DNA from: Artemia franciscana
Lineage: Eukaryota; Arthropoda; Branchiopoda; Anostraca; Artemiidae
Direction of reading: 5' to 3'
Length of the DNA: 64,000 nt
Assembly (NCBI RefSeq): GCF_032884065.1
Contig: NC_088866.1
Span: 52,832,068 to 52,896,067 of the forward strand
Shown: positions 1,899 through 61,443 of the stretch, piece by piece
How positions within the stretch are numbered: the stretch's first letter is position 1
Layout of the letters: every line of letters starts with the position of its first letter
Translations under genes and position numbers: made by a program
Notes under the pieces: generated by a model
Database searches by the model: none
The model's input: the letters and a program-made list of their open reading frames with translations, nothing else
What the model was told of the DNA's origin: nothing

Positions 1899-1995
1899 GA
1901 TCACCCACACGGTTATCCTCGATGACCCCTTTCCAGATCCTGAAGGTTTTTTGGCACCAGATAGGTCACCTGAGCCAACTCGTGAAATTCTTCAG
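1899..1995 (+). CDS. PPIL4: PPIL4 exon a: post-cyclophilin linker
   Basis: 97 nt. The first base completes an Arg codon from the previous exon, followed by 32 codons. Conserved blocks are [11 protein letters not shown] and [11 protein letters not shown]. Acceptor tag at 1896-1898; donor gtaaga from 1996. The exon ends on a complete codon. Confidence 0.93.
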
Positions 1996-4900
1996 GTAAG
2001 AACTTTATTTCTTTAATAGCTTGTGTGTACTACTAAAAATTCACTGCAGCACCAAACTGCTAGGGGCCAGAACTGCTGCCGGTGCTCCTTCTTCATCCCA
2101 ACCCATTCAAAGCTTCCCTTTTTACACCTTCCCAAGAAAATTAAATTTCATTTTAAATCCTTTCTTACAACCTATTTCTAACCAAATTGAGGACAGCTTG
2201 TTTTTCGTTTGGCCCAAGATGGTTAGCCAGAAAGGATGATCTTTGACAGTCTGCCATCCGCAAAAATTGTTTTAGTCATCTCGATCTTTTGCTCATTTCA
2301 GCCCTAAAAAGTGATATAAACCAAATTTTTAGTACAGCTTATCGTTTGATATACGGTGAGTTGGACGGGACAGTGTGTCAGTAGTTCCGCATGGTTTTGT
2401 CATATTTAAGAAGTTAGCTCCAGTATTATTATTGGGAGGAAGAGGGGTCTACATCCGGAGAGTCAAGGGGCATAGGCTATAAAATAATTGCCCTAGCAAA
2501 TTATTGGGAGAAAACTGCCCCCCAAACGACACCACTGATTATATTTAGTTTAAACATAAAATACAAAACATAGGATCTAAACAGTTCCCATTAGAAAAAA
2601 AATTCCCTCTTAGAAAAGGTTTCGAAAAAATACCCGCACGATTACTTAGTATGCATAAAAATTGCTTGCATGCATATACATAATATGTACATACATCATC
2701 AAGTGTTTACGTTTAGAGCTATTCAAAGGGGATTCTGCGCCCCCTCCCTTTACCTCTTATTCCATAATATCCTCTGATTTTGTGACGCTGTACCTTCTTA
2801 TGTTGTTTTCGTCAGGTATCCCCCCCCACTCCCACGCGAAAAAAAAAGAACTAAAGGAAGTTCTTTTACCTAAAGGAAGCATTCATTGGAGACAAGCGTG
2901 TACGAACCTTCAGTCGCCTGGCACTGGTAAACTCTAGAGGCGTAGGGGGTGCAGTCAAGGGTACCAGGCAGACAAGCACTTATAGTCTCTGTATCTCTTT
3001 TTTCCTCTCTTAATTTCTCTATATTTCTGTCTTTCTTTTCTTCCTTGCATATTTTCAGTAGTTTGCAACCTTGAAGTTCTGAATGAATATTCACGATTCT
3101 TCCACTACACGGTGGTAAATATTTCAGGGTGGAAGGATTGCTCCAGACGAAGATATTAACGAGTTTGCTGACCGCTCCCAAGAAGAAATCGAAGAATACA
3201 TTAAAGAGAAGGAAGCGAAGGCTCAAGCAACTATCTTGGAAATGATTGGAGATTTGCCAAGTGTTGACGTGGCCCCACCGGAGAATGTTCTTTTTGTTTG
3301 CAAATTGAATCCTGTGACAACAGAAGATGATTTGGCTATTATTTTTGGACGTTTTGGAAATATTGTCAGGTATAATTTGATAGTCTTTACATTTAAACCT
3401 ATTTTGTGACAGAATGGTGCAAATTTTGTTTCAATTGAAAACGACTAGGCTCTGTAAATTCGGACTGATAGGCCGAATTTATAGCGGTATTTTATGAAGT
3501 CTTTATTGGCAAAATATTTAGAATTTTTTTTTATTACTTATCTAAATAAGAATACCAATAGAAAGAAATTGGCCTGTAAATAAACAGGAAGGTTTAGTTT
3601 TATTCATTTTATTTACTTATCTAATTGTTTTTGTATTTATTTTGAACCCAATTTTGTAGTCAAGGAAGACAAGCTTTGCACTCTGAGATTTTCCAAGCTC
3701 CTGCTTGTAATTAATAGAATATACTTCTTTCTTTTTCTTTTCTTTTTTTTACTGTGAAATTCACCAAGCAAATTAAAATTTAACCTGTCAGAACCTACCT
3801 CAAGATTTGATCTTCTTGTATGACTACCTCTTGAAAGTGATCTACCTCGACAGTCTGCCTCAAAATCTTGATGCTGTACTTGTAGTGCGTAGAAATACTT
3901 ATATAGTAGGGATAGTCCGTCAGATCCTAATATATATCTGTATATATAAATATGTATATATATTTATTTATTTATTTAAATAGATACGAAAAATTTTTAG
4001 TCAAATAATTTATAGGGAAGATGTAAGATCTATGAAAAGTAAACATATTTTCAGGTTTACTTTTAACAGTTGACAAAGAAGCAAAGTGTAAATACTGTTT
4101 CCTTGCACACAATAAGGAAATTACAATTTTTTAACTTTGAATTGTGGGCAAAGACTACTCCATGATCTTTCTCTGGTCCCTAGGTGTCAACAGTCAAGCA
4201 TTTAATTGACTGTAGATATGCTGGATGCTTTTACAAGTATCGCAGCTAAACGGATTGAACAGGTGAATCGCGTTACCAGAGTCAGTCAAGTACGCGATTG
4301 GGGGAGGGGCGAAGGTTGGCCTCTTTTCAAACATCTTGTGGTAACGAACTGTAAGCTAGGAGTGACTCGGCTCAAAAATAAAAAAAAACGTAAAGAAGAA
4401 AGAGCGAGGATAATTACAGCCATTGACAAATCAAAGTGAACTATGCAAATATTTTGGTCGAGAAATATTGGCTACTGACTCACTCCCTACGGTACCTTGA
4501 CATTCACTCAAAGATCTCAGCATACACAAGCTACGTTAGGCCACAGCTTGAATACGCCACTGCCATCTGGTCGCCATATCTCAAAAAGGATATTGACAGA
4601 ATAAAACGAGTCCAGAAACACTTTGTAAAAGGACTTCAAGGATTCAGAAACCTACCGTATGACGAAGCTCTTAGAAAGCTCACTCTCCATAAACTTGAGA
4701 CAAGAAGAACGATCTTAGACTTAAAAACCCTCTGCAAGATAGTTAACAAGAATTTTGGGAACGTAAAAGACAAGTTCGTTTAAATATTTCCCCAAAGCAA
4801 CAAAAGATCGCACAGTCTGCAATTGGAGCCTGTGAAGATGAAGATTGAAAGATCTAATTCTTATCATCATTCGTTCATACCCCGGGTAATCAGGATCTAG

Positions 4901-7900
4901 AACAACTGCCATTCCCAGTCGAAAAGATGAAATCACTGGAAGCCATCTCCAATAGCCTAAACATAAACCTATCATATCTCGAGATTTTCAACGTAGGATG
5001 ACTTTAAATGGCAATCGTGCCGCTGTCTATCCGCTCTTCGCCCTGCGATAACATTTTCTTTTAATAAGGTGTCAGTTATGTGGAAATTTTGTATTAAACA
5101 TTTACAGAGAAAACAGGATTTTACAGAGAAAAATCCTATGATGTAGTGTAAAGATTTATTGAGCTTAAATTCTTATGTCCAAAATTATATTATCAATCAC
5201 CAAATTGCTGACCTTAACAAATCTTAATTGTTTGAGTAATAAGGAGATACGGGATCGTAAAACTTAAAAATCACTTAAATATAGCTTCATTATGTTACTA
5301 AGCACCAAATTGCTAACGTTCACAATTCTTGTGGCATTGTTTTAATTGTAACAACATTGTTTTAGTTGAAAGGTGATTACGGAATCGTGAAACTGAAAAA
5401 TCACTTCAGTTTGGGTTCATTATATTACCAGTCTCCAATTGCAATCATCAAGTTGCTAAATATATTACCAATCACCAAATTGTAAACGTCAACAGTTCTT
5501 AGTTGTTTTAGTTGCGAGGTGATACGAGACTGTGAAACTGATAAAATGCTTCAGAATGGGTTCGTTATATTACCAACCACTAAATTGCTTACCAATCACC
5601 AAATTGCTAACTTATATAACCAACTGCTAAGTTGATAACTTTAACAATTGCTAATTGTTTTAATTGCGAGGTGATACGAGACGGTGAAACTGATAAATCG
5701 CTTCAAAATGGGTTCGTTATATTACCAACTGCCAAGTTGATAACGTTAACAATTGCTAATTGTTTTAGTTGCGAGGTGATACGAGACGGTGAAACTGATA
5801 AAATCGCTTCAGAATGGGTTCGTTATATTACCAACCACTAAATTGCTTACCAATCACCAAATTGCTAACTTATATAACCAACTGCCAAGTTGATAACGTT
5901 AACAATTGCTAATGTTTTAGTTGCGAGGTGATACGAGACGGTGAAACTGATAAAATCGCTTCAGAATGGGTTCGTTATATTACCAACCACTAAATTGCTT
6001 ACCAATCACCAAATTGCTAACTTATATAACCAACTGCTAAGTTGATAACTTTAACAATTGCTAATTGTTTTAATTGCGAGGTGGTATGAGACGGTGAAAC
6101 TGATAAATCGCTTCAAAATGGGTTCGTTATATTACCAACTGCCAAGTTGATAACGTTAACAATTGCTAATTGTTTTAGTTGCGAGGTGATACGAGACGGT
6201 GAAACTGATAAAATCGCTTCAGAAAGGGTTCGTTATATTACCAACCACTAAATTGCTTACCAATCACCAAATTGCTAACTTATATAACCAACTGCCAAGT
6301 TGATAACGTTAACAATTGCTAATGTTTTAGTTGCGAGGTGATACGAGACGGTGAAACTGATAAAATCGCTTCAGAATGGGTTCGTTATATTACCAACCAC
6401 TAAATTGCTTACCAATCACCAAATTGCTAACTTATATAACCAACTGCTAAGTTGATAACTTTAACAATTGCTAATTGTTTTAATTGCGAGGTGATATGAG
6501 ACGGTGAAACTGATAAATCGCTTCAAAATGGGTTCGTTATATTACCAACTGCCAAGTTGATAACGTTAACAATTGCTAATTGTTTTATTGCGAGGTGATA
6601 CGAGACGGTGAAACTGATAAAATCGCTTCAGAATGGGTTCGTTATATTACCAACCACTAAATTGCTTACCAATCACCAAATTGCTAACTTATATAACCAA
6701 CTGCTAAGTTGATAACTTTAACAATTGCTAATTGTTTTAATTGCGAGGTGATATGAGACGGTGAAACTGATAAATCGCTTCAAAATGGGTTCGTTATATT
6801 ACCAACTGCCAAGTTGATAACGTTAACAATTGCTAATTGTTTTAGTTGCGAGGTGATACGAGACGGTGAAACTGATAAAATCGCTTCAGAATGGGTTCGT
6901 TATATTACCAACCACTAAATTGCTTACCAATCACCAAATTGCTAACTTATATAACCAACTGCTAAGTTGATAACTTTAACAATTGCTAATTGTTTTAATT
7001 GCGAGGTGATACGAGACGGTGAAACTGATAAAATCGCTTCAGAATGGGTTCGTTATATTACCAACCACTAAATTGCTTACCAATCACCAAATTGCTAACT
7101 TATATAACCAACTGCTAAGTTGATAACTTTAACAATTGCTAATTGTTTTAATTGCGAGGTGATATGAGACGGTGAAACTGATAAATCGCTTCAAAATGGG
7201 TTCGTTATATTACCAACTGCCAAGTTGATAACGTTAACAATTGCTAATTGTTTTAGTTGCGAGGTGATACGAGACGGTGAAACTGATAAAATCGCTTCAG
7301 AATGGGTTCGTTATATTACCAACCACTAAATTGCTTACCAATCACCAAATTGCTAACTTATATAACCAACTGCTAAGTTGATAACTTTAACAATTGCTAA
7401 TTGTTTTAATTGCGAGGTGATACGAGACGGTGAAACTGATAAAATCGCTTCAGAACGGGTTCGTTATATTACCAACTGCCAAGTTGATAACGTTAACAAT
7501 TGCTAATGTTTTAGTTGCGAGGTGATATGAGACGGTGAAACTGATACATCGCTTCAAAATGGGTTCGTTATATTACCAACTGCCAAGTTGATAACGTTAA
7601 CAATTGCTAATGTTTTAGTTGCGAGGTGATACGAGACGGTGAAACTGATAAAATCGCTTCAGAATGGGTTCGTTATATTACCAACCACTAAATTGCTTAC
7701 CAATCACCAAATTGCTAACTTATATAACCAACTGCTAAGTTGATAACTTTAACAATTGCTAATTGTTTTAATTGCGAGGTGATATGAGACGGTGAAACTG
7801 ATAAATCGCTTCAAAATGGGTTCGTTATATTACCAACTGCCAAGTTGATAACGTTAACAATTGCTAATTGTTTTAGTTGCGAGGTGATACGAGACGGTGA

Positions 7901-10900
7901 AACTGATAAAATCGCTTCAGAATGGGTTCGTTATATTACCAACCACTAAATTGCTTAACAATCACCAAATTGCTAACTTATATAACCAACTGCTAAGTTG
8001 ATAACTTTAACAATTGCTAATTGTTTTAATTGCGAGGTGATATGAGACGGTGAAACTGATAAATCGCTTCAAAATGGGTTCGTTATATTACCAACTGCCA
8101 AGTTGATAACGTTAACAATTGCTAATTGTTTTAGTTGCGAGGTGATACGAGACGGTGAAACTGATAAAATCGCTTCAGAATGGGTTCGTTATATTACCAA
8201 CCACTAAATTGCTTACCAATCACCAAATTGCTAACTTATATAACCAACTGCTAAGTTGATAACTTTAACAATTGCTAATTGTTTTAATTGCGAGCTGATA
8301 CGAGACGGTGAAACTGATAAAATCGCTTCAGAATGGGTTCGTTATATTACCAACCACTAAATTGCTTACCAATCACCAAATTGCTAACTTATATAACCAA
8401 CTGCTAAGTTGATAACTTTAACAATTGCTAATTGTTTTAATTGCGAGGTGATATGAGACGGTGAAACTGATAAATCGCTTCAAAATGGGTTCGTTATATT
8501 ACCAACTGCCAAGTTGATAACGTTAACAATTGCTAATTGTTTTAGTTGCGAGGTGATACGAGACGGTGAAACTGATAAAATCGCTTCAGAATGGGTTCGT
8601 TATATTACCAACCACTAAATTGCTTACCAATCACCAAATTGCTAACTTATATAACCAACTGCTAAGTTGATAACTTTAACAATTGCTAATTGTTTTAATT
8701 GCGAGGTGATACGAGACGGTGAAACTGATAAAATCGCTTCAGAACGGGTTCGTTATATTACCAACTGCCAAGTTGATAACGTTAACAATTGCTAATGTTT
8801 TAGTTGCGAGGTGATATGAGACGGTGAAACTGATACATCGCTTCAAAATGGGTTCGTTATATTACCAACTGCCAAGTTGATAACGTTAACAATTGCTAAT
8901 GTTTTAGTTGCGAGGTGATACGAGACGGTGAAACTGATAAAATCGCTTCAGAATGGGTTCGTTATATTACCAACCACTAAATTGCTTACCAATCACCAAA
9001 TTGCTAACTTATATAACCAACTGCTAAGTTGATAACTTTAACAATTGCTAATTGTTTTAATTGCGAGGTGATATGAGACGGTGAAACTGATAAATCGCTT
9101 CAAAATGGGTTCGTTATATTACCAACTGCCAAGTTGATAACGTTAACAATTGCTAATTGTTTTAGTTGCGAGGTGATACGAGACGGTGAAACTGATAAAA
9201 TCGCTTCAGAATGGGTTCGTTATATTACCAACCACTAAATTGCTTACCAATCACCAAATTGCTAACTTATATAACCAACTGCCAAGTTGATAACGTTAAC
9301 AATTGCTAATGTTTTAGTTGCGAGGTGATACGAGACGGTGAAACTGATAAAATCGCTTCAGAATGGGTTCGTTATATTACCAACCACTAAATTGCTTACC
9401 AATCACCAAATTGCTAACTTATATAACCAACTGCTAAGTTGATAACTTTAACAATTGCTAATTGTTTTAATTGCGAGGTGATATGAGACGGTGAAACTGA
9501 TAAATCGCTTCAAAATGGGTTCGTTATATTACCAACTGCCAAGTTGATAACGTTAACAATTGCTAATTGTTTTAGTTGCGAGGTGATACGAGACGGTGAA
9601 ACTGATAAAATCGCTTCAGAATGGGTTCGTTATATTACCAACCACTAAATTGCTTACCAATCACCAAATTGCTAACTTATATAACCAACTGCTAAGTTGA
9701 TAACTTTAACAATTGCTAATTGTTTTAATTGCGAGGTGATACGAGACGGTGAAACTGATAAAATCGCTTCAGAATGGGTTCGTTATATTACCAACCACTA
9801 AATTGCTTACCAATCACCAAATTGCTAACTTATATAACCAACTGCTAAGTTGATAACTTTAACAATTGCTAATTGTTTTAATTGCGAGGTGATATGAGAC
9901 GGTGAAACTGATAAATAGCTTCAAAATGGGTTCGTTATATTACCAACCACTAAATTGCTTGCCAATCACCAAATTGCTTACTTATATTACCAACTGCCAA
10001 GTTGATAACGGTAACAATTGCTAATTGTTTTAGTTGCGAGGTGATACGAGACGGTGAAACTGATAAAATCGCTTCAGAATGGGTTCGTTATATTACCAAC
10101 TGCCAAGTTGATAACGTTAACAATTGCTAATGTTTTAGTTGCGAGGTGATACGAGACGGTGAAACTGATAAAATCGCTTCAGAATGGGTTCGTTATATTA
10201 CCAACTGCCAAGTTGATAACGTTAACAATTGCTAATGTTTTAGTTGCGAGGTGATATGAGACGGTGAAACTGATACATCGCTTCAAAATGGGTTCGTTAT
10301 ATTACCAACTGCCAAGTTGATAACGTTAACAATTGCTAATGTTTTAGTTGCGAGGTGATACGAGACGGTGAAACTGATAAAATCGCTTCAGAATGGGTTC
10401 GTTATATTACCAACCACTAAATTGCTTACCAATCACCAAATTGCTAACTTATATAACCAACTGCTAAGTTGATAACTTTAACAATTGCTAATTGTTTTAA
10501 TTGCGAGGTGATATGAGACGGTGAAACTCATAAATAGCTTCAAAATGGGTTCGTTATATTACCCACCACTAAATTGCTTGCCAATCACCAAATTGCTTAC
10601 TTATATTACCAACTGCCAAGTTGATAACGTTAACAATTGCTAATTGTTTTAGTTGCGAGGTGATACAAGACGGTGAAACTGATAAAATCGCTTGAGAATG
10701 GGTTCGTTATATTACCAACCACTAAATTGCTAACTTATATTACCAACTGCCAAGTGGATACCGTTGACAATTGTTTTAGTTGCGAGGTGATATGAGACGG
10801 TGAAACTGATAAATCGCTTCAGAATGGGTTCGTTATATTACCAACCACTAAATTGCTTACCAATCACCGAATTTCTAACTTATATAACCAACTGCTAAGT

Positions 10901-13900
10901 TGATAACTTTAACAATTGCTAATTGTTTTAATTGCGAGGTGATTTGAGACGGTGAAACTCATAAATAAATAGCTTAAAAATGGGTTCTTTATATTACCAA
11001 CCACTAAATTGCTAACTTATATTACCAACTGCCAAGTGGATACCATTGACAATTTTTAATTGTTTTAGGTGCGAGGTGATATGAGACGGTGAAACTGATA
11101 AATCGCTTCAAAATGGGTTCGTTATATTAACAACCACTAAATTGCTTACCAATCACCAAATTGCCAAATCACCAATAACGTTAACAATTGCTAATTGTTT
11201 TAGTTGCGAAGTGATAAGATACCGTGAAACTGATAAATCGCATCAATACGGGTTCGTTATATTACCAACCACTAAATTGCTTACCAATCACCAAATTGGT
11301 TACTTATATTACCAACTGGCAAGTTGATAACATTAACAATTGCTAATTGTTTTAGTTGCGAGGTGATAAGATACCGTGAAACTGATAAATCGCTTCAATA
11401 TGGGTTCGTTATATTACCAACCACTAAATTGCTTACGAATCACCAAATTTGTTACTTATATTACCAACTGTCAAGTTGATAACGTTAACAATTGCTAATT
11501 GTTTTAGTTGCGAGGTGATAAGATACTGTGAAACTGATAAATCGCTTCAATATGGGTTCTTATATTACCAACCACTAAACTGCTTACCAATCACCAAATT
11601 GGTTACTTATATTACCAGCTGCCAAGTTGATAACGTTAACAATTGCTAATTGTTTTAGCTGCGAGGTGATACGAGTCTGTGAAACTAATAAATCGCTTCA
11701 AAATGGGTTCGTTATATTACCAACCACTAATTTGATTACCAATCACCAAATTGGTGACTTATATTACCAACTGCCAAGTTGATAACGTTAACAATTGCTA
11801 ATTGTTTTAGTTGCGAGGTGATAAGATACCGTGAAACTGATAAATCGCTTCAATGTGGGTTCGTTATATTACCAACTGCCAAATTGATAACGTTAACAAT
11901 TGCTAATTGTTTTAGCTGCGAGGTGATACGAGGCTGTGAAACTGATAAATCGCTTCAAAATGGGTTCATTATATTACCAACTATAATTGCTTACCAACTG
12001 CCAAGTTGATAACGTTAACAATTGCTAATTGTTTTAGCTGCGAGGTGATACGAGACCGTGAAACTGATAAATCATTTCAAAATGGGTTCCTTATATTACC
12101 AACCACTAAATTGCTTACCAATCACCAAATTGCTAACTTATATTACCAACTGCCTAGTTGATAACGTTAACAATTGCTAATTGTTTTAGCTGCGAGGTGA
12201 TACGAGACCGTGAAACTGATAAATCATTTCAAAATGGGTTCCTTATATTACCAACCACTAAATTGCTTACCAATCACCAAATTGCTAACTTATATTACCA
12301 ACTGCCAAGTTGATAACGTTAACAATTGCTAATTGTTTTAGCTGCGAGGTGATACGAGACCGTGAAACTGATAAATCATTTCAAAATGGGTTCCTTATAT
12401 TACCAACCACTAAATTGCTTACCAATCACCAAATTGCTAACTTATATTACCAACTGCTAAGTTGATAACTTTAACAATTGCTAATTGTTTTAATTGCGAG
12501 GTGATATGAGACGGTGAAACTGATAAATCGCTTCAAAATGGGTTCGTTATATTACCAACTGCCAAGTTGATAACGTTAACAATTGCTAATTGTTTTAGTT
12601 GCGAGGTGATACGAGACGGTGAAACTGATAAAATCGCTTCAGAATGGGTTCGTTATATTACCAACCACTAAATTGCTTACCAATCACCAAATTGCTAACT
12701 TATATAACCAACTGCCAAGTTGATAACGTTAACAATTGCTAATGTTTTAGTTGCGAGGTGATACGAGACGGTGAAACTGATAAAATCGCTTCAGAATGGG
12801 TTCGTTATATTACCAACCACTAAATTGCTTACCAATCACCAAATTGCTAACTTATATAACCAACTGCTAAGTTGATAACTTTAACAATTGCTAATTGTTT
12901 TAATTGCGAGGTGATATGAGACGGTGAAACTGATAAATCGCTTCAAAATGGGTTCGTTATATTACCAACTGCCAAGTTGATAACGTTAACAATTGCTAAT
13001 TGTTTTAGTTGCGAGGTGATACGAGACGGTGAAACTGATAAAATCGCTTCAGAATGGGTTCGTTATATTACCAACCACTAAATTGCTTACCAATCACCAA
13101 ATTGCTAACTTATATAACCAACTGCTAAGTTGATAACTTTAACAATTGCTAATTGTTTTAATTGCGAGGTGATATGAGACGGTGAAACTGATAAATCGCT
13201 TCAAAATGGGTTCGTTATATTACCAACTGCCAAGTTGATAACGTTTACAATTGCTAATTGTTTTAGTTGCGAGGTGATACGAGACGCTGAAACTGATAAA
13301 ATCGCTTCAGAATGGGTTCGTTATATTACCAACCACTAAATTGCTCACCAATCACCAAATTGCTAACTTATATAACCAACTGCTAAGTTGATAACTTTAA
13401 CAATTGCTAATTGTTTTAATTGCGAGGTGATACGAGACGGTGAAACTGATAAAATCGCTTCAGAATGGGTTCGTTATATTACCAACCACTAAATTGCTTA
13501 CCAATCACCAAATTGCTAACTTATATAACCAACTGCTAAGTTGATAACTTTAACAATTGCTAATTGTTTTAATTGCGAGGTGATATGAGACGGTGAAACT
13601 GATAAATCGCTTCAAAATGGGTTCGTTATATTACCAACTGCCAAGTTGATAACGTTAACAATTGCTAATTGTTTTAGTTGCGAGGTGATACGAGACGGTG
13701 AAACTGATAAAATCGCTTCAGAATGGGTTCGTTATATTACCAACCACTAAATTGCTTACCAATCACCAAATTGCTAACTTATATAACCAACTGCTAAGTT
13801 GATAACTTTAACAATTGCTAATTGTTTTAATTGCGAGGTGATACGAGACGGTGAAACTGATAAAATCGCTTCAGAACGGGTTCGTTATATTACCAACTGC

Positions 13901-16900
13901 CAAGTTGATAACGTTAACAATTGCTAATGTTTTAGTTGCGAGGTGATATGAGACGGTGAAACTGATACATCGCTTCAAAATGGGTTCGTTATATTACCAA
14001 CTGCCAAGTTGATAACGTTAACAATTGCTAATGTTTTAGTTGCGAGGTGATACGAGACGGTGAAACTGATAAAATCGCTTCAGAATGGGTTCGTTTTATT
14101 ACCAACCACTAAATTGCTTACCAATCACCAAATTGCTAACTTATATAACCTACTGCTAAGTTGATAACTTTAACAATTGCTAATTGTTTTAATTGCGAGG
14201 TGATATGAGACGGTGAAACTGATAAATCGCTTCAAAATGGGTTCGTTATATTACCAACTGCCAAGTTGATAACGTTAACAATTGCTAATTGTTTTAGTTG
14301 CGAGGTGATACGAGACGGTGAAACTGATAAAATCGCTTCAGAATGGGTTCGTTATATTACCAACCACTAAATTGCTTACCAATCACCAAATTGCTAACTT
14401 ATATAACCAACTGCCAAGTTGATAACGTTAACAATTGCTAATGTTTTAGTTGCGAGGTGATACGAGACGGTGAAACTGATAAAATCGCTTCAGAATGGGT
14501 TCGTTATATTACCAACCACTAAATTGCTTACCAATCACCAAATTGCTAACTTATATAACCAACTGCTAAGTTGATAACTTTAACAATTGCTAAATGTTTT
14601 AATTGCGAGGTGATATGAGACGGTGAAACTGATAAATCGCTTCAAAATGGGTTCGTTATATTACCAACTGCCAAGTTGATAACGTTAACAATTGCTAATT
14701 GTTTTAGTTGCGAGGTGATACGAGACGGTGAAACTGATAAAATCGCTTCAGAATGGGTTCGTTATATTACCAACCACTAAATTGCTTACCAATCACCAAA
14801 TTGCTAACTTATATAACCAACTGCTAAGTTGATAACTTTAACAATTGCTAATTGTTTTAATTGCGAGGTGATACGAGACGGTGAAACTGATAAAATCGCT
14901 TCAGAATGGGTTCGTTATATTACCAACCACTAAATTGCTTACCAATCACCAAATTGCTAACTTATATAACCAACTGCTAAGTTGATAACTTTAACAATTG
15001 CTAATTGTTTTAATTGCGAGGTGATATGAGACGGTGAAACTGATAAATAGCTTCAAAATGGGTTCGTTATATTACCAACCACTAAATTGCTTGCCAATCA
15101 CCAAATTGCTTACTTATATTACCAACTGCCAAGTTGATAACGGTAACAATTGCTAATTGTTTTAGTTGCGAGGTGATACGAGACGGTGAAACTGATAAAA
15201 TCGCTTCAGAATGGGTTCGTTATATTACCAACTGCCAAGTTGATAACGTTAACAATTGCTAATGTTTTAGTTGCGAGGTGATACGAGACGGTGAAACTGA
15301 TAAAATCGCTTCAGAATGGGTTCGTTATATTACCAACTGCCAAGTTGATAACGTTAACAATTGCTAATGTTTTAGTTGCGAGGTGATACGAGACGGTGAA
15401 ACTGATAAAATCGATTCAGAATGGGTTCGTTATATTACCAACTGCCAAGTTGATAACGTTAACAATTGCTAATGTTTTAGTTGCGAGGTGATACGAGACG
15501 GTGAAACTGATAAAATCGCTTCAGAACGGGTTCGTTATATTACCAACTGCCAAGTTGATAACGTTAACAATTGCTAATGTTTTAGTTGCGAGGTGATATG
15601 AGACGGTGAAACTGATACATCGCTTCAGAATGGGTTCGTTATATTACCAACTGCCAAGTTGATAACGTTAACAATTGCTAATGTTTTAGTTGCGAGGTGA
15701 TACGAGACGGTGAAACTGATAAAATCGCTTCAGAATGGGTTCGTTATATTACCAACCACTAAATTGCTTACCAATCACCAAATTGCTAACTTATATAACC
15801 AACTGCTAAGTTGATAACTTTAACAATTGCTAATTGTTTTAATTGCGAGGTGATATGAGACGGTGAAACTCATAAATAGCTTCAAAATGGGTTCGTTATA
15901 TTACCCACCACTAAATTGCTTGCCAATCACCAAATTGCTTACTTATATTACCAACTGCCAAGTTGATAACGTTAACAATTGCTAATTGTTTTAGTTGCGA
16001 GGTGATACAAGACGGTGAAACTGATAAAATCGCTTGAGAAATGGTTCGTTATATTACCAACCACTAAATTGCTAACTTATATTACCAACTGCCAAGTGGA
16101 TACCGTTGACAATTGTTTTAGTTGCGAGGTGATATGAGACGGTGAAACTGATAAATCGCTTCAGAATGGGTTCGTTATATTACCAACCACTAAATTGCTT
16201 ACCAATCACCGAATTTCTAACTTATATAACCAACTGCTAAGTTGATAACTTTAACAATTGCTAATTGTTTTAATTGCGAGGTGATATGAGACGGTGAAAC
16301 TCATAAATAAATAGCTTAAAAATGGGTTCTTTATATTACCAACCACTAAATTGCTAACTTATATTACCAACTGCCAAGTGGATACCATTGACAATTTTTA
16401 ATTGTTTTAGGTGCGAGGTGATATGAGACGGTGAAACTGATAAATCGCTTCAAAATGGGTTCGTTATATTAACAACCACTAAATTGCTTACCAATCACCA
16501 AATTGCCAAATCACCAATCACCAATAACGTTAACAATTGCTAATTGTTTTAGTTGCGAAGTGATAAGATACCGTGAAACTGATAAATCGCATCAATACGG
16601 GTTCGTTATATTACCAACCACTAAATTGCTTACCAATCACCAAATTGGTTACTTATATTACCAACTGGCAAGTTGATAACATTAACAATTGCTAATTGTT
16701 TTAGTTGCGAGGTGATAAGATACCGTGAAACTGATAAATCGCTTCAATATGGGTTCGTTATATTACCAACCACTAAATTGCTTACGAATCACCAAATTTG
16801 TTACTTATATTACCAACTGTCAAGTTGATAACGTTAACAATTGCTAATTGTTTTAGTTGCGAGGTGATAAGATACTGTGAAACTGATAAATCGCTTCAAT

Positions 16901-19900
16901 ATGGGTTCTTATATTACCAACCACTAAACTGCTTACCAATCACCAAATTGGTTACTTATATTACCAGCTGCCAAGTTGATAACGTTAACAATTGCTAATT
17001 GTTTTAGCTGCGAGGTGATACGAGATTTTGAAACTGATAAATCGCTTCAAAATGGGTTCGTTATATTACCAACCACTAAATTGATTACCAATCACCAAAT
17101 TGCTGACTTATATTACCAACTGCCAAGTTGATAACGTTAACAATTGCTAATTGTTTTAGTTGCGAGGTGATAAGATACCGTGAAACTGATAAATCGCTTC
17201 AATGTGGGTTCGTTATATTACCAACTGCCAAATTGATAACGTTAACAATTGCTAATTGTTTTAGCTGCGAGGTGATACGAGGCTGTGAAACTGATAAATC
17301 GCTTCAAAATGGGTTCATTATATTACCAACTATAATTGCTTACCAATCACCAAATTGCTAACTTATATTACCAACTGCCAAGTTGATAACGTTAACAATT
17401 GCTAATTGTTTTAGTTGCGAGATGATAAGAGACCGTGAAACTGATAAATCATTTCAAAATGGGTTCCTTATATTACCAACCACTAAATTGCTTACCAATC
17501 ACCAAATTGCTAACTTATATTACCAACTGCAAGTTGATAACGTTAACAATTGCTAATTGTTTTAGTTGTGAGGTGATACGGGACCGTGAAACTGATAAAT
17601 CGCTTCAATATGGGTTCATTGAGTTTGACAATCCCAAGTCAGCTGAGGAAGCTTATTTCAAGATGGACAATTGTTTGATTGATGATAGACGAATTCATGT
17701 CGACTTTAGCCAGTCTGTTGCCCATCTTAAGTGGAGAGGAAAAGGTATGTACACAAGAGAAATCAACAGTTTTTTTTATTATTACCTTAACCACATTATA
17801 AGATCAATATAAAAGTCGCGATACGTCGGGGGTGTAAGGCTCGAAGATATATCCAACCTTGTTGAATTTATGCCTTCATAAGCCGCTTTTAGCGTCGCTT
17901 TAAGTAGTAAAAACAAGTATGTCGCTCAACTTTAACGTAGAGGGCGCAGTATGGACATCAGAAATGTTATTTTTGATGTCCATAGGCAGCGCAATATCAC
18001 TGCCAAGTAAAGAGGGATGTGCGCACAATGTATTGTTTATTTATGAATTTTTAGACTGGGTCACTTTGCATAGAAGGAGTTGTAGAAACTTTGATAGGGC
18101 TCATTTAATTGGAAATAAAAAGTTCTACTGTTCTTTCTAATTGTCGAAAGTGGTCCTTCATTTTCCAAAACAAGCTTCCAGTTCAAATTTGAGATTTCCT
18201 TTTTCTTCAGCATTGTTGAAAGGTCCTGTAATTATTTAGTATCAACCGCATGAACAAAGGGTATAACCCCCTGAACAAAGGGTGTAACCCCCTGAACAAA
18301 GGCTGTAAGTTAGGCAATTTGTTCACTGTTTGCATATAGTATATGTAATTGAGAAAGGTATGCATGTTTGTTTGACCTCTGCTTTCCAAAAAGACAAAGG
18401 GCATTCAGGTGAGCCTTTCAGAGACGATTGAGGGGAGTGTTGAACTGAATTACAACAGGCTATGTGTTTAACTCAGTAACTCAGAAATGACTGAGTATAT
18501 TAATTTGGAACTTTCAGGAAATTATAGGGGATATGATCAATTGTTGACCTAAAATGTGTAACTACCACCACTAGTACTGCTTCTACTACTACTTATACAA
18601 GTACAGTACTACATTTAAAATATTGAGGGAAAATTTGAACTAATTCAAAAGACACTATGTGCATGCATATTGTCAAAAGGCCGTATCTTAAGTGGATTTA
18701 ATTATTAAGTTGGAACTTTCAGAAAATGCTTAAAGGGGAAGATCAGTTGACCAAAAGGCAATATGTAAATGTAACTACTATGCTTCTACCGCTGCTACAT
18801 TTACTACTACTACTACTCTCTTTTGGAACTACCACCTCTGGCTAAAGGCATTGAGAAGAAAATTATAAAAGTATATAAATAATCAGGCTATCAAAAGAAT
18901 AATCAGCAATGTAATAGCAACGGGTAATTGTAATAAGTTGAAACTTCCATGACTTGATGGGAATGATGCTCAAATCACCAAAAGGCAATGCACTATTAAT
19001 ACTACCACTAAAGTTACTGTAACTAATGATGCCAATGGTATTAATGTGAAAATTTTAGGGAACGTTTACGGAGAGTTTCAATTAAACGAAAAAACTATGC
19101 GCATTTAGGTTTTTAAAAGGGCATAAAAGCAATATCGCCACTCCATAAAAACTCTATAAAAGGGCCAGCGCCACTCTATAATAGCTAGAAATATCCTTGA
19201 AACTATTCCGTAATATATTTTTTATTATATAAGTTTATATATATCTTATATCGGTTTTATGTATAAGGGACTCTTTATATTTTTATATGTTTTGTTAAAG
19301 ATGTGGAAATTTGTTCTTTTTGTTTGGTTCTATTTTTATCGTTTGTAAAAACCCGTGTCGTTTAGCATAAGCAACCCGGAATTTGAATAATATGTTCCAG
19401 TCTCTTTACTCGCCAGGTGTGCCAGTTGGAAGGGGAAAATAGACCCATAGAGGTTCAAAAAATACCTTCCTCTTTGTCTCTCTGTTTAGAAAAGCTAAAT
19501 GAATGAAAATTACCCAAAAAGTTTTCATTGTTTGAGTCAGGATGGAGGGAATAGGCTTTTTTTGGAGGGGGGTATGTTAGACACTGTTTTGATGTATAAA
19601 ATTTGCTTTACTCCTTTTACCACTGTCTCAAATAGTGAAAATAACTATGATGTCTTTTATTAAATCACTCTAAGATGCGATCGAGCTCTTTTATATTTTC
19701 GTTGTCAAAAAATAAAAAGTATATCGTAATTTTGCTAGATAGCGAAAATAATGTTTTTCTAATCTATACTTTAGTTTTTGTTGAATTAAAATCAAGCCAT
19801 GTCCAGTTCGAAATAAAGCCAAGACAGTTAGTCTGAGTGAGAGACAAAGCTACCATAAGCTTTTTAGGATTGTATAACAATGATGTCATATCACTTGTTG

Positions 19901-22522
19901 ATAGAGGCTCTAACATCCGCCCATCCATCCTAGGGCAGAACTAAAGTAGATAGGCATAGAAAAAATGGATGATCGAGATTTTTGTTTTGACAATAGAATA
20001 GAAATATGTTGAATATTTATGGTGTAAAGGGGGGGGTGAAAATTACAATAGAGTATATCCAATTAAGTGAAATGTAGCTAAAAAAAATTGTTTTTGTTAA
20101 TTATTTTCGTGCAGCTATACATAGCTACATTTTTGAGACGACCCCCCCCCCTCTCCAAAAAAAGAAAAAACTTTAGGTTCTTATCCACTTCAAAAAATTG
20201 GTCTTAATCTGTCTATTATCTTTCCACTCCTCTTGTATCTGCAAAACATTCATCTGGTCACAAGAAATAATAAATTATAGGATGAAAAATATATATTATA
20301 TGAATAAAAATAATAAATATTAGATTGGAATAATGGGCATTCGTTTACACTTTACAACTCCTCATACATTCAGACTTGGCCTTTGCATGTTTGTCACTTG
20401 TCTTAATTTTCGGTATATGGTCCGTAACATTTACTTTTTAATAAAGAAATTTAATTTCGGGCTTGTTAAGCACTAACACCGACCCTATGTAGGTGGCGCT
20501 GCCACTGATTCCTATTTCCACCAGCTTGGGTATTGAGGTCATGGATGAAACTGTTTTTTATCTAAGCTGAAATTCTTAGTATTTTATTATTTTTTTTCCT
20601 TCTTTATATATCCTTTTAGACATTGTATCTATTAGGTAAAATATAAAATTTATTAATATAAATATGAATTAATTGTTTTTTCTTTATAACAAAGAGAAAG
20701 GGGGTTTGGTTTTACATTTTATTTTTTGTTATATATTTTTTTATTATATATATATACATATATATATATATTTCCATATACATACTGTAGCACTATTTTT
20801 TTTTAGTTATGTTTAGGTTTTATTTTAATCCAATTATTGTTGATAATGGAGGGAGTTATTTTAGGCTTTTTATCGAAGCTAAACTTTTACTATATTTATC
20901 TTTTCCTTTATAACCTTTTTGGATTGCTATTTATTTAGCAAATTTCAAATAAACTGCTTTTTTTTCTAATACAGAGGTAGAAAAGATTGAGATTGACATT
21001 TCATGTTTAGTTTTCAAGTTTCATTTTCATTTCCTTTCAATTGACTCTTTACTTTGTTTCAGGAAAAGGAGGTTATGCTGAAGATTTCGACCAAGATAAG
21101 TTTTTGGAGAAAAGGAAGAGGTCAAAAGATCACGAGAAAACTAAAAGAAAATCTGAAGAGCGTAGAAAGAAGAGTTCTGAAGACAGACAAAGGAAAAGCT
21201 CTGAAGAGAGACCAAGGAAAAGTTCCGAAGACAGACAAAGGAAAAGCTCTGAAGAGAGACCAAGGAAAAGTTCCGAAGACAGACAAAGGAAAAGTTCTGA
21301 GGAACGAGAAAAAAGCCCCAGCTTGACCATTAAAAAACCATCTAGAAGAAGCATAAGAAGACGCTCAGAAAGTCATGAAAACGGTAGATCCCTCAGTCGC
21401 TCACCTCAGAAACGACGTCGCAGCCCATCGGAGCATCGTCGTAGTCCATCATACCGCCGAAGACGATCTCCACCGCGAAGGTCTCCACCAAGACAGTGGC
21501 GCAATGATCGCTATTGGAATGGTGGACGTCGAGGGAGGAGTCCAGCTTACAGTCGAAATATGAATGATTGGAGAAGGTCTAGAAGATCCCCAATGTGGAG
21601 GGAGAGGCCTACTCGTTATTGGGATGATAGAGATAGGCATGATAGAGACAGCAGAAGACGTAGATCAAGCGAACGCGATTATGATCGAAGGCGTAGCGCA
21701 GATAGAGTACGCAAGTCTCCTGAATTGGAGCATCGTAGAAGATCGGAATCAAGGTATTCAAAAAGTCGATCTATCACTCCGGACATTAAAAAGCGCAAGT
21801 ATACCGAAAGTTCAAAGAAAAAAAGGCGAGAAACCTCTAGTGAGTCGGAAAAATCGGTTGAACGATCACCCAGTCATCATAAAGGTCGTCGCAGTCGTAG
21901 CAGAAGCATTCGTAAAGAAAGAACTGCTTCACCAGTTCCTCCTGCTCCTGTTGTTGAGATGACATATGATAAATTCGGCTTTCTTGGAAGAAAGCCACCA
22001 GTACCTACCGAATCAGAAAAGAAAGAGATATCCGCTAGAGAAAAAAGGCGTTCAAGATCCCGTAAAAGGTCTGTGTCACGTCGGAAGTCTCCTGAAACAC
22101 GAAAGAAAAGCTTAGAACCAAATGTTGACAAACGTAGACGACGAGGTTCCACGCCAGAAGGGCGTAGAAGGAGAAGTCCTTCCAGAGAAAAGGCTCGTCG
22201 TAGGAGCCGCAGTCGAAATCGCTCAGTAACTCCTCCTAGGAAAAGAGTGGTTACTCAAGAAAAACCGAAAAAAGCTGAAATTGTTAAAGAAAGACGTAAA
22301 AAGGTTGAAACAGAGACTGAAGAATCATCCGCAGAATCGAGTGCAGAAGAAGTAAGAAAGAAGAAGAAGAAGAAGGCTAAGGCGAAAAAGAAGAAATCTC
22401 GAAAAGAAGCTTCTGGCTCGGAAAGTAGTCAGGAGGCGGATTCTGATTCCGCAGAGAGCGACTCTGGTGCTGAAGAAAGGAAGAAGAAGAAAAAGAGCAA
22501 GAAGAAGAAGAGTAAAAAATAG
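1899..22522 (+). CDS. PPIL4: PPIL4-like cyclophilin/RRM protein, 3' part of gene (4 exons)
   Basis: Joined exons are 1899-1995, 3128-3369, 17566-17744 and 21063-22522, giving about 658 residues. All junctions are GT-AG and keep frame. The order matches human PPIL4 as I know it: the post-cyclophilin linker ([19 protein letters not shown]), a glutamate-rich helix, an RRM with RNP2 (LFVCKL) and RNP1 (YGFIEF), then [13 protein letters not shown] and a charged tail. PPIL4 is a nuclear peptidyl-prolyl isomerase-like protein associated with the spliceosome. The N-terminal isomerase domain is outside the window, so its catalytic state cannot be judged. The tail after the RRM is about 485 residues, far longer than the roughly 175 I recall for human, and is rich in RS, KR and K/E. 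Intron 2 (3370-17565) contains the decoy splice-site array. The identification is firm; the extended tail could be lineage-specific. Confidence 0.93.
1996..3127 (+). other. PPIL4 intron, nothing else recognised
   Basis: Spans from a gtaaga donor to a ttcag acceptor. It is AT-rich with C and T tracts. I see no transposon or RNA gene in it. Confidence 0.7.
3128..3369 (+). CDS. PPIL4: PPIL4 exon b: helix and RRM first half (RNP2)
   Basis: 242 nt, 80 codons plus two bases (AG) of a Ser codon. It encodes a Glu/Lys-rich helix ([16 protein letters not shown]), then [29 protein letters not shown] and FGRFGNIV. The RRM beta-1/RNP2 strand is LFVCKL. Donor gtataa follows 3369. The split Ser codon is completed by T at the start of the next exon, which identifies the true acceptor. 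Confidence 0.95.
3370..4337. other. PPIL4 intron 2, unique 5' part
   Basis: AT-rich intron sequence with a TA/ATTT low-complexity run at about 3938-3985. No gene or recognisable transposon seen. Confidence 0.6.
4338..4378 (+). repeat. R1 family 5'-end fragment
   Basis: About 40 bp resembling the conserved 5' end of the R1 family (taacgaactgt, then aggagtgactcggctc). It is a diverged short piece immediately before a LINE fragment. Confidence 0.55.
4436..5060 (+). mobile_element. Non-LTR retrotransposon fragment, RT C-terminal region
   Basis: The 115-codon frame at 4436-4783 carries the usual C-terminal signature of LINE ORF2 proteins: [45 protein letters not shown] and LKTLCKIV. The similarity continues past the stop in broken frames to about 5060. 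The polymerase core and endonuclease are absent, so this is a 5'-truncated, dead copy lying in the PPIL4 intron just before the satellite array. Confidence 0.85.
5188..5640 (+). repeat. Diverged 5' edge of the array
   Basis: The first units are strongly decayed. Examples are gagtaataaggagatacggg at about 5233 and gttgaaaggtgattacgg at about 5356. They still read gggttcatt like the true exon, where core units read gggttcgtt. This edge looks older than the core. Confidence 0.75.
8740..12000 (+). repeat. Large duplicated block of the array, copy 1
   Basis: Shares rare variants in the same order with 13875-17345. Examples are gatacatcg at about 10272, cataaataaatagctta at about 10968 and gataagatacc units from about 11211. 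The offset is about 5132 bp before 10,100, 5341 bp after it, and 5349 bp after an 8-bp microduplication near 11,170/16,511. Confidence 0.8.
13875..17345 (+). repeat. Large duplicated block of the array, copy 2
   Basis: Second copy of the block at 8740-12000, with two additional ~105-bp units near 15,235-15,540. Its 3' end leads into the genuine exon; the corresponding 3' end of copy 1 leads back into core dimer units at about 12,470. Confidence 0.8.
17566..17744 (+). CDS. PPIL4: PPIL4 exon c: RRM second half (RNP1), founder of the array
   Basis: 179 nt. T completes the split Ser codon, then [40 protein letters not shown] and LKWRGK, plus one base of a Gly codon. Acceptor ttttag at 17560-17565; donor gtatgt from 17745. 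This is the only copy that continues past TTCATT into the rest of the RRM and has a proper donor, so it is the functional exon at the 3' end of the array. Its third codon base differs from most units (TGT versus TGC). Confidence 0.95.
18248..18310. repeat. 21-bp minisatellite, three copies
   Basis: Three consecutive units of about 21 bp of the form gaacaaagggtgtaaccccct, the last one diverged. Confidence 0.8.
18480..19085. repeat. Diverged tandem triplication with TAC-rich cores
   Basis: Three units of roughly 235 bp. Each has ttggaactttcag or a similar block, a caaaaggcaat-type block and a (TAC)n-like tract with accaccact/actactact. They differ by many substitutions. Confidence 0.6.
21063..22522 (+). 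CDS. PPIL4: PPIL4 exon d: RS/KR-rich C-terminal tail and stop
   Basis: Two bases complete Gly, then about 485 codons to TAG at 22520-22522. After [14 protein letters not shown] the protein is low complexity. It has an eightfold-residue repeat (21173-21313), then many SR/RS, RRSPS and SRSRS dipeptides, an island at 21951-22000 ([19 protein letters not shown]), and a final K/E/S tail ending KKKKSKK. Such RS-like tails are typical of nuclear-speckle and spliceosome proteins. Frames on the other strand and in other phases here are shadows of the purine-rich coding strand. Confidence 0.92.
21173..21313 (+). repeat. 24-bp coding repeat (SSEDRQRK / SSEERPRK), about six units
   Basis: In-frame minisatellite inside the last PPIL4 exon. 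Units of eight residues alternate SSEDRQRK and SSEERPRK, so the higher-order period is 48 bp. Nucleotide identity between units is very high, which indicates recent expansion. Confidence 0.9.

Positions 22523-30563: not shown

Positions 30564-61443
<30,880 letters not shown>

Follow-up and report, generated by a model that had tools for sequence, protein, structure and literature searches.

A tandem array of truncated exon copies bearing acceptor-like sequences lies upstream of the functional exon in an intron of Artemia franciscana PPIL4

The window analyzed here is a 64,000-nt stretch of the Artemia franciscana genome (contig NC_088866.1, forward-strand positions 52,832,068 to 52,896,067) that carries the 3' part of PPIL4, and the intron between two of the exons of this gene, here called b and c, contains a 12.4-kb tandem array of truncated copies of the intron end and the start of exon c. 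Our analysis covers one assembly of one species and draws on sequence and annotation only. COX1 of this assembly, carried on a contig of 15,822 bp, shows 100% identity to COX1_ARTSF from A. franciscana. PPIL4 is intact, with 813 aa encoded in 8 exons separated by GT-AG introns; it starts ~26 kb to the left of the window and ends at position 22522. The protein encoded by exons b to d matches RRM_1 and human PPIL4 (7qtt_V), which, together with the 8-exon model, bears out the gene assignment made in a preliminary description of this DNA. Exon c is single copy: the 12 protein matches obtained comprise exons b, c, and d at this locus (3 matches) and 9 weak ones of 30 to 42% identity. An NCBI protein named "PPIase sig-7-like isoform X2" joins exon b directly to exon c at 17566 and equals our model except for 16 aa missing from a coding repeat in exon d. 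That annotated continuity places the array wholly within the intron between exons b and c, which is 14,196 nt long (3370-17565). At the level of annotation, it also counts against exon c lying outside the transcribed PPIL4 gene, the alternative that the preliminary description had set against its own proposal. The exon d repeat (21169-21300) has a 48-bp unit, isoform X2 being one 16-aa unit shorter, and it may be length polymorphic or have been misread as a small intron. The features of the gene and the array are as follows.

1899..1995, + strand: PPIL4 exon a, encoding the linker after the PPIase domain (gene model; residues in NCBI model P0241)
3128..3369, + strand: PPIL4 exon b, encoding linker and the first half of the RRM; donor CAG|GTATAA at 3370
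5187..5565, + strand: units 1-3, truncated copies that form the distal edge of the array and are diverged (mean pairwise identity 0.638); left edge set by eye
5566..12547, + strand: units 4-55, the first large block, mainly of 104/105- and 152/153-nt units
12548..17468, + strand: units 56-92, the second block; its three longest matches to the first block (offsets 5132, 6421, and 5343) are of 98.6 to 99.5% identity
17469..17565, + strand: intron end of the functional unit, with no mismatch to the decoy consensus over 97 compared sites and with one 1-nt deletion
17566..17744, + strand: PPIL4 exon c, the sole full copy; the array repeats its initial 54 nt (17566-17619); donor AAG|GTATGT at 17745
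21063..22522, + strand: PPIL4 exon d, encoding the RS-rich C terminus, with the stop codon

The array runs from ~5187 to 17619 and consists of 93 exon-start units, namely, 92 truncated copies of the intron end and exon c start followed by the real exon c, in agreement with the roughly 90 units between exons b and c first described. This census derives from 97 anchor matches, 4 of which were off register and were removed by hand; among the 93 units are 48 distinct ones, and no N occurs in the array. Across the 92 intervals, spacings of 105 nt (26 intervals), 153 nt (26), 152 nt (21), and 104 nt (6) dominate, and Tandem Repeats Finder, proposed earlier as a means of counting units, gives matching periods. 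The units are arranged head to tail with higher-order structure, each joining an intron part to ~54 nt of exon c; the intron part measures ~51 nt in the short form and ~98 nt in the long form, which contains 19-nt repeats. The pairing of intron end with exon start (~52 nt in the preliminary description) is therefore real, but the units are not all acceptors: the acceptor position reads AG in 61 of the 92 truncated units, AA in 30, and TA in 1, with the 30 AA units apparently forming one subfamily. Nor do the copies end just after RNP1, as had been stated. They stop within GGGTTC.TT, the continuation of which is present in exon c only, and the encoded ..LQYGFI, which we take to belong to RNP1, breaks off inside that motif, without EF. 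The rest of the exon and its donor are, as described, present in the last copy only (17566-17744).

Most of the array falls into two blocks of ~5 to 6 kb each. Positions 7568-10414 match 12700-15547 at 99.47% identity, and 9982-11997 match 15325-17346 at 98.96%, while units 77 and 78 have no ordered counterpart in the other block and the halves differ by whole units. Mean pairwise identity is 0.95 in units 4-42 versus 0.638 in units 1-3 and is 0.926 in units 87-92; the interior is homogenized, the distal edge is diverged, and the proximal edge is slightly more diverged than the interior. Just upstream of the array, at 4427-4783, is a 118-aa open frame that has no Pfam match and that, judged by eye, resembles the C-terminal end of a long interspersed nuclear element reverse transcriptase.

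The preliminary description held that the gene must pass dozens of near-identical acceptors upstream of exon c, and this is what the comparison of intron ends gives: 30 of the 61 AG decoys are identical to the real intron over its final 25 nt, and in 19 others the ungapped comparison is thrown out of register by a 1-nt deletion. The real site cannot be recognized from the sequence that ends at its AG, given that its intron end shows the consensus state of the decoys at 97 of 97 sites; with the exact decoys considered as well, the distinguishing feature must be its position or something that follows the AG. Donor strength was scored with crude base weights, which serve as a rough guide given that exon b's own donor scores 0.72. 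On this scale, the exon c donor scores 5.82, and the best donors within the array score 4.37 (1 site), 3.5 (1), 2.11 (2), 2.09 (2), and 2.03, the last being GAG|GTGATA (84 sites). Sites scoring at least 4 number 1 in the 12.4-kb array versus ~0.5 per kb in shuffles, but, because the units of the array are not independent, we do not claim this scarcity of strong donors as selection.

The unit reads TTTTAG|TTGCGAG|GTGATA, so that AG and GT are 7 nt apart. The scans for stops and pseudoexons took 62 sites, of which 61 are true AG decoys and 1 is spurious (TTTGAG inside an AA unit). Reading through from any of the 62 (61 true) reaches a stop in the exon b frame after at most 199 nt. A GAG|GTGATA also follows every one of these sites 30 to 320 nt downstream, at 159 to 160 nt in 34 cases and at 111 to 112 nt in 13, and 60 of the 62 pseudoexons thus delimited bear a stop in frame with exon b. 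This weak donor-like sequence could potentially yield putative poison pseudoexons, mostly of 111 to 160 nt. Sequence matches to candidate pairs of weak 3' and 5' sites, which might define an exon, are present in the array, their strength being gauged by the same crude weights. Two further candidates were considered and rejected. Selection keeping the splice module finds no significant excess conservation there, the least variable 14-site window (-8 to +5) having 2 of 14 sites variable (permutation P of 0.23), and RNA structure at the acceptor finds 6 of 6 folds ordinary (z between -0.62 and 0.39).

By two pattern searches, the array is confined to this locus. A 35-mer from the exon half and a 34-mer from the intron half, searched genome-wide with up to 3 mismatches, gave 44 and 82 matches, respectively, all of them inside the array; the reversed patterns, used as a control, gave 0, and neither the 35-mer nor the 34-mer matched any unplaced contig. 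No dispersed copies were found by these two patterns, neither of which covers the 19-nt repeats in the long form of the unit. An exact 27-base pattern had no match in viral or prokaryote collections, and no known RNA family was present in the window at gathering thresholds. The unit-unit junctions read GGGTTC[AG]TT|ATATTACCAA, exon c at the matching point reads GGGTTCATT|GAG, and the left edge of the array reads AAAATT|ATATTATCAA, a set of sequences that fits one tandem duplication with ~3 bp of microhomology followed by unequal exchange. The repeat unit crosses the native intron/exon boundary unbroken, and the array terminates at the native exon. In the proposed course of events, a single tandem duplication would have fused exon c after ...GGGTTCATT to the intron at ATATTA(C/T)CAA, with ~3 bp shared, and would have left the start of the exon as a truncated copy ahead of exon c; the copies would then have risen to 92 by unequal exchange, which would also keep the interior homogeneous, apparently together with the intron end of the functional copy. 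The structure, including its block duplications, fits the origin across the intron/exon c boundary and the growth by unequal exchange that the preliminary description had put forward.

How far this homogenization reaches was compared site by site in the 45 distinct units among units 3-92, with units 1 and 2 excluded and shown separately. Comparison of the real unit with the decoy consensus gives 5 mismatches in 54 exon sites and 0 in 97 intron sites (Fisher p = 0.005), and comparison with units 4-42 gives 6 and 1, respectively (p = 0.009); zero intron differences are found in just 1 of the 30 long distinct decoys. Two exon c sites are unlike all 45 distinct decoys, and both are synonymous (TGT/TGC and CGG/CGA); unit 1 has exon c's state at both of them, and unit 2 has it at one. 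The decoy exon pieces lack a codon-position pattern, with 12, 7, and 7 variable sites at positions 1, 2, and 3 (18 sites each). Homogenization by the array probably extends to the real intron end but not to the coding part, for which this is modest evidence, and purifying selection on the protein would be what shelters the coding part of exon c.

We consider it likely that the array is a mostly neutral intronic satellite derived from one tandem duplication and that the true site is found through exon definition. Splicing would choose 17566 because it begins the sole complete exon with the stronger donor, with exon definition acting across the 14.2-kb intron; the decoys would be mostly ignored, and the array would be nearly neutral or mildly costly. 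Exon definition would also be the reason that the array is tolerated. Two smaller tandem arrays occupy the intron between PPIL4 exons 1 and 2, one of period 119 and 9 copies (L002:1641-2718) and one of period ~295 and 5.6 copies (L003:6702-8327), and neither shows a match over 60 nt to the exon c array. Because these unrelated arrays sit in another PPIL4 intron, intron arrays appear ordinary here, and, together with the spread of the AA form, the lack of excess conservation, and the ordinary folds, they favor a tolerated satellite.

Several observations weigh against this interpretation. Donor sites scoring at least 2 occur at 7.3 per kb in the array versus 2.05 in shuffles, and the exon b donor (0.72) falls below the GAG|GTGATA (2.03) present in 84 of 92 decoys, so that the array is not strictly without donors. 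The near-identical halves may be haplotypes that the assembly joined, in which case the copy number would be too high. As for the sheltering of exon c, the contrast with the nearest units (87-92, or alternatively 47-54) is 2 of 97 intron and 5 of 54 exon sites in each case (p = 0.098). Decoys themselves diverge from the consensus by 5.3% in the exon piece versus 3.7% in the intron part, 11 of the 45 distinct decoys have at least 5 exon differences, and 1 of the 45 has a skew equal to that of the real unit. It is this decoy exon variability, with the nearest-unit contrast, that keeps the evidence for sheltering modest. The neutral-satellite interpretation is independent of the sheltering point, and the decoy control does not alter how likely we hold it to be.

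An alternative is that the array works as a set of decoy exons, in which the AGs would engage U2AF and U2 and the GAG|GTGATA of the following unit would engage U1, and the resulting unproductive complexes would detain the intron or give poison transcripts, lowering PPIL4 output, perhaps as autoregulation. The downstream GAG|GTGATA at 62 of 62 sites (61 true) and the stops in 60 of 62 pseudoexons speak for it, as do parallels in PMC12017769, according to which a decoy exon of ~150 nt with weak sites in OGT needs its 5' sites for detention, SF3B1 also has a decoy exon, and the retained introns that go with decoys are longer. PPIL4 is itself spliceosomal and, according to PMC10208982, binds the intron downstream of the branch site within a brake on PRP2. 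That such a protein has this array in its own intron is a suggestive coincidence rather than evidence of feedback. The slowed splicing, circular RNAs, and fidelity sensor feeding back on PPIL4 that the preliminary description put forward are hypothetical consequences, and a third of the decoys lack the AG. The AA form has nevertheless spread to 30 of 92 decoys regardless, the splice module is not significantly conserved, and the folds are unremarkable, and we regard a decoy-exon function as rather improbable. A stronger version, in which the intron of a spliceosomal brake protein would carry a multicopy device for titrating splicing complexes, with array length setting PPIL4 output and perhaps sensing spliceosome capacity, strikes us as more doubtful still.

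Delivery of the exon fragment and array by a mobile element or retrocopy is very improbable. Tandem gene fragments are carried by Helitrons and elements like them, but all 44 and all 82 matches of the exon-half and intron-half patterns lie in the array (the 19-nt repeats of the long form being in neither pattern), there is one copy of exon c, and the unit crosses the native intron/exon boundary without a break in an array that ends at the native exon, so we disfavor this origin. A partial assembly artefact, in which a real array of about half the size was doubled by the joining of two haplotypes in a PacBio-based assembly, seems unlikely. The three longest between-half matches are 98.6 to 99.5% identical, and the probable source assembly was, according to PMC11492255, built from 20-kb PacBio Sequel libraries; yet the array contains no N, unplaced contigs carry no pattern matches, and the halves differ by whole units (units 77 and 78 lacking an ordered counterpart). 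The finding would in any case hold with the array halved.

Among known systems, Dscam-like clusters consist of complete alternative exons with donors. The PPIL4 array resembles them in having many tandem copies from one exon and is unlike them in that its copies are truncated and noncoding. The decoy exons in detained introns of OGT, SF3B1, and ARGLU1 (PMC12017769) share with it a long intron and pseudoexon-like sequences resembling 3' and weak 5' sites, and a stop that inclusion would bring in. The putative pseudoexons with weak 5' sites are the point of contact, and the long host intron is present at 14,196 nt. Those decoys are, however, exons with experimentally shown detention, a single one of ~150 nt in OGT, whereas the 61 acceptors in the PPIL4 array are tandem, stem from the exon that follows, and are known from sequence alone. 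UBC and VCX3A, tandem-repeat genes described as spliced at dual-specific sites (PMC10809524), likewise have one set of splice sites per tandem unit and many in-register choices. There, AGGT serves as both sites, and the repeats are coding in UBC; in PPIL4, 7 nt separate AG from GT, the repeated sequence is noncoding, and only the last choice is taken in the NCBI model. An AGGT core as a dual site is absent from the unit, and coding repeats are ruled out by the in-frame stops at 62 of 62 sites (61 true). CeRep25B of C. elegans is, according to PMC4039745, an intronic minisatellite linked to splicing, and the PPIL4 array is similarly an intronic tandem repeat that may bear on splicing; CeRep25B is multilocus and palindromic with a 24-base unit, whereas the PPIL4 array is single locus and includes an acceptor and exon start. 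Among the matches listed in open-license literature, a search with most subscription journals outside it, no title or opening of an abstract presented such an array. The PPIL4 array constitutes a natural experiment on how the spliceosome finds a 3' splice site, and it allows exon definition to be tested in a native gene. A further suggestion from it is that concerted evolution reaches a functional acceptor and is held off at the coding exon.

Other features of the window include a small TTGGTCATACA/TTTCGTTCG tandem array at 37388-37584 and, on the minus strand at 48679-49104, an open frame matching S-adenosylmethionine decarboxylase (PF01536, E value of 4.5e-11), which is probably an exon of a neighboring gene. 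A reverse transcriptase fragment (RVT_1, E value of 7e-12) lies at 54370-54915, with more open frames at 49 to 54 kb. In the whole genome, we found 75 COX1 matches, including the mitochondrial contig and several nearly full-length copies on chromosomes, which would reflect many nuclear mitochondrial copies or mixing in the assembly.

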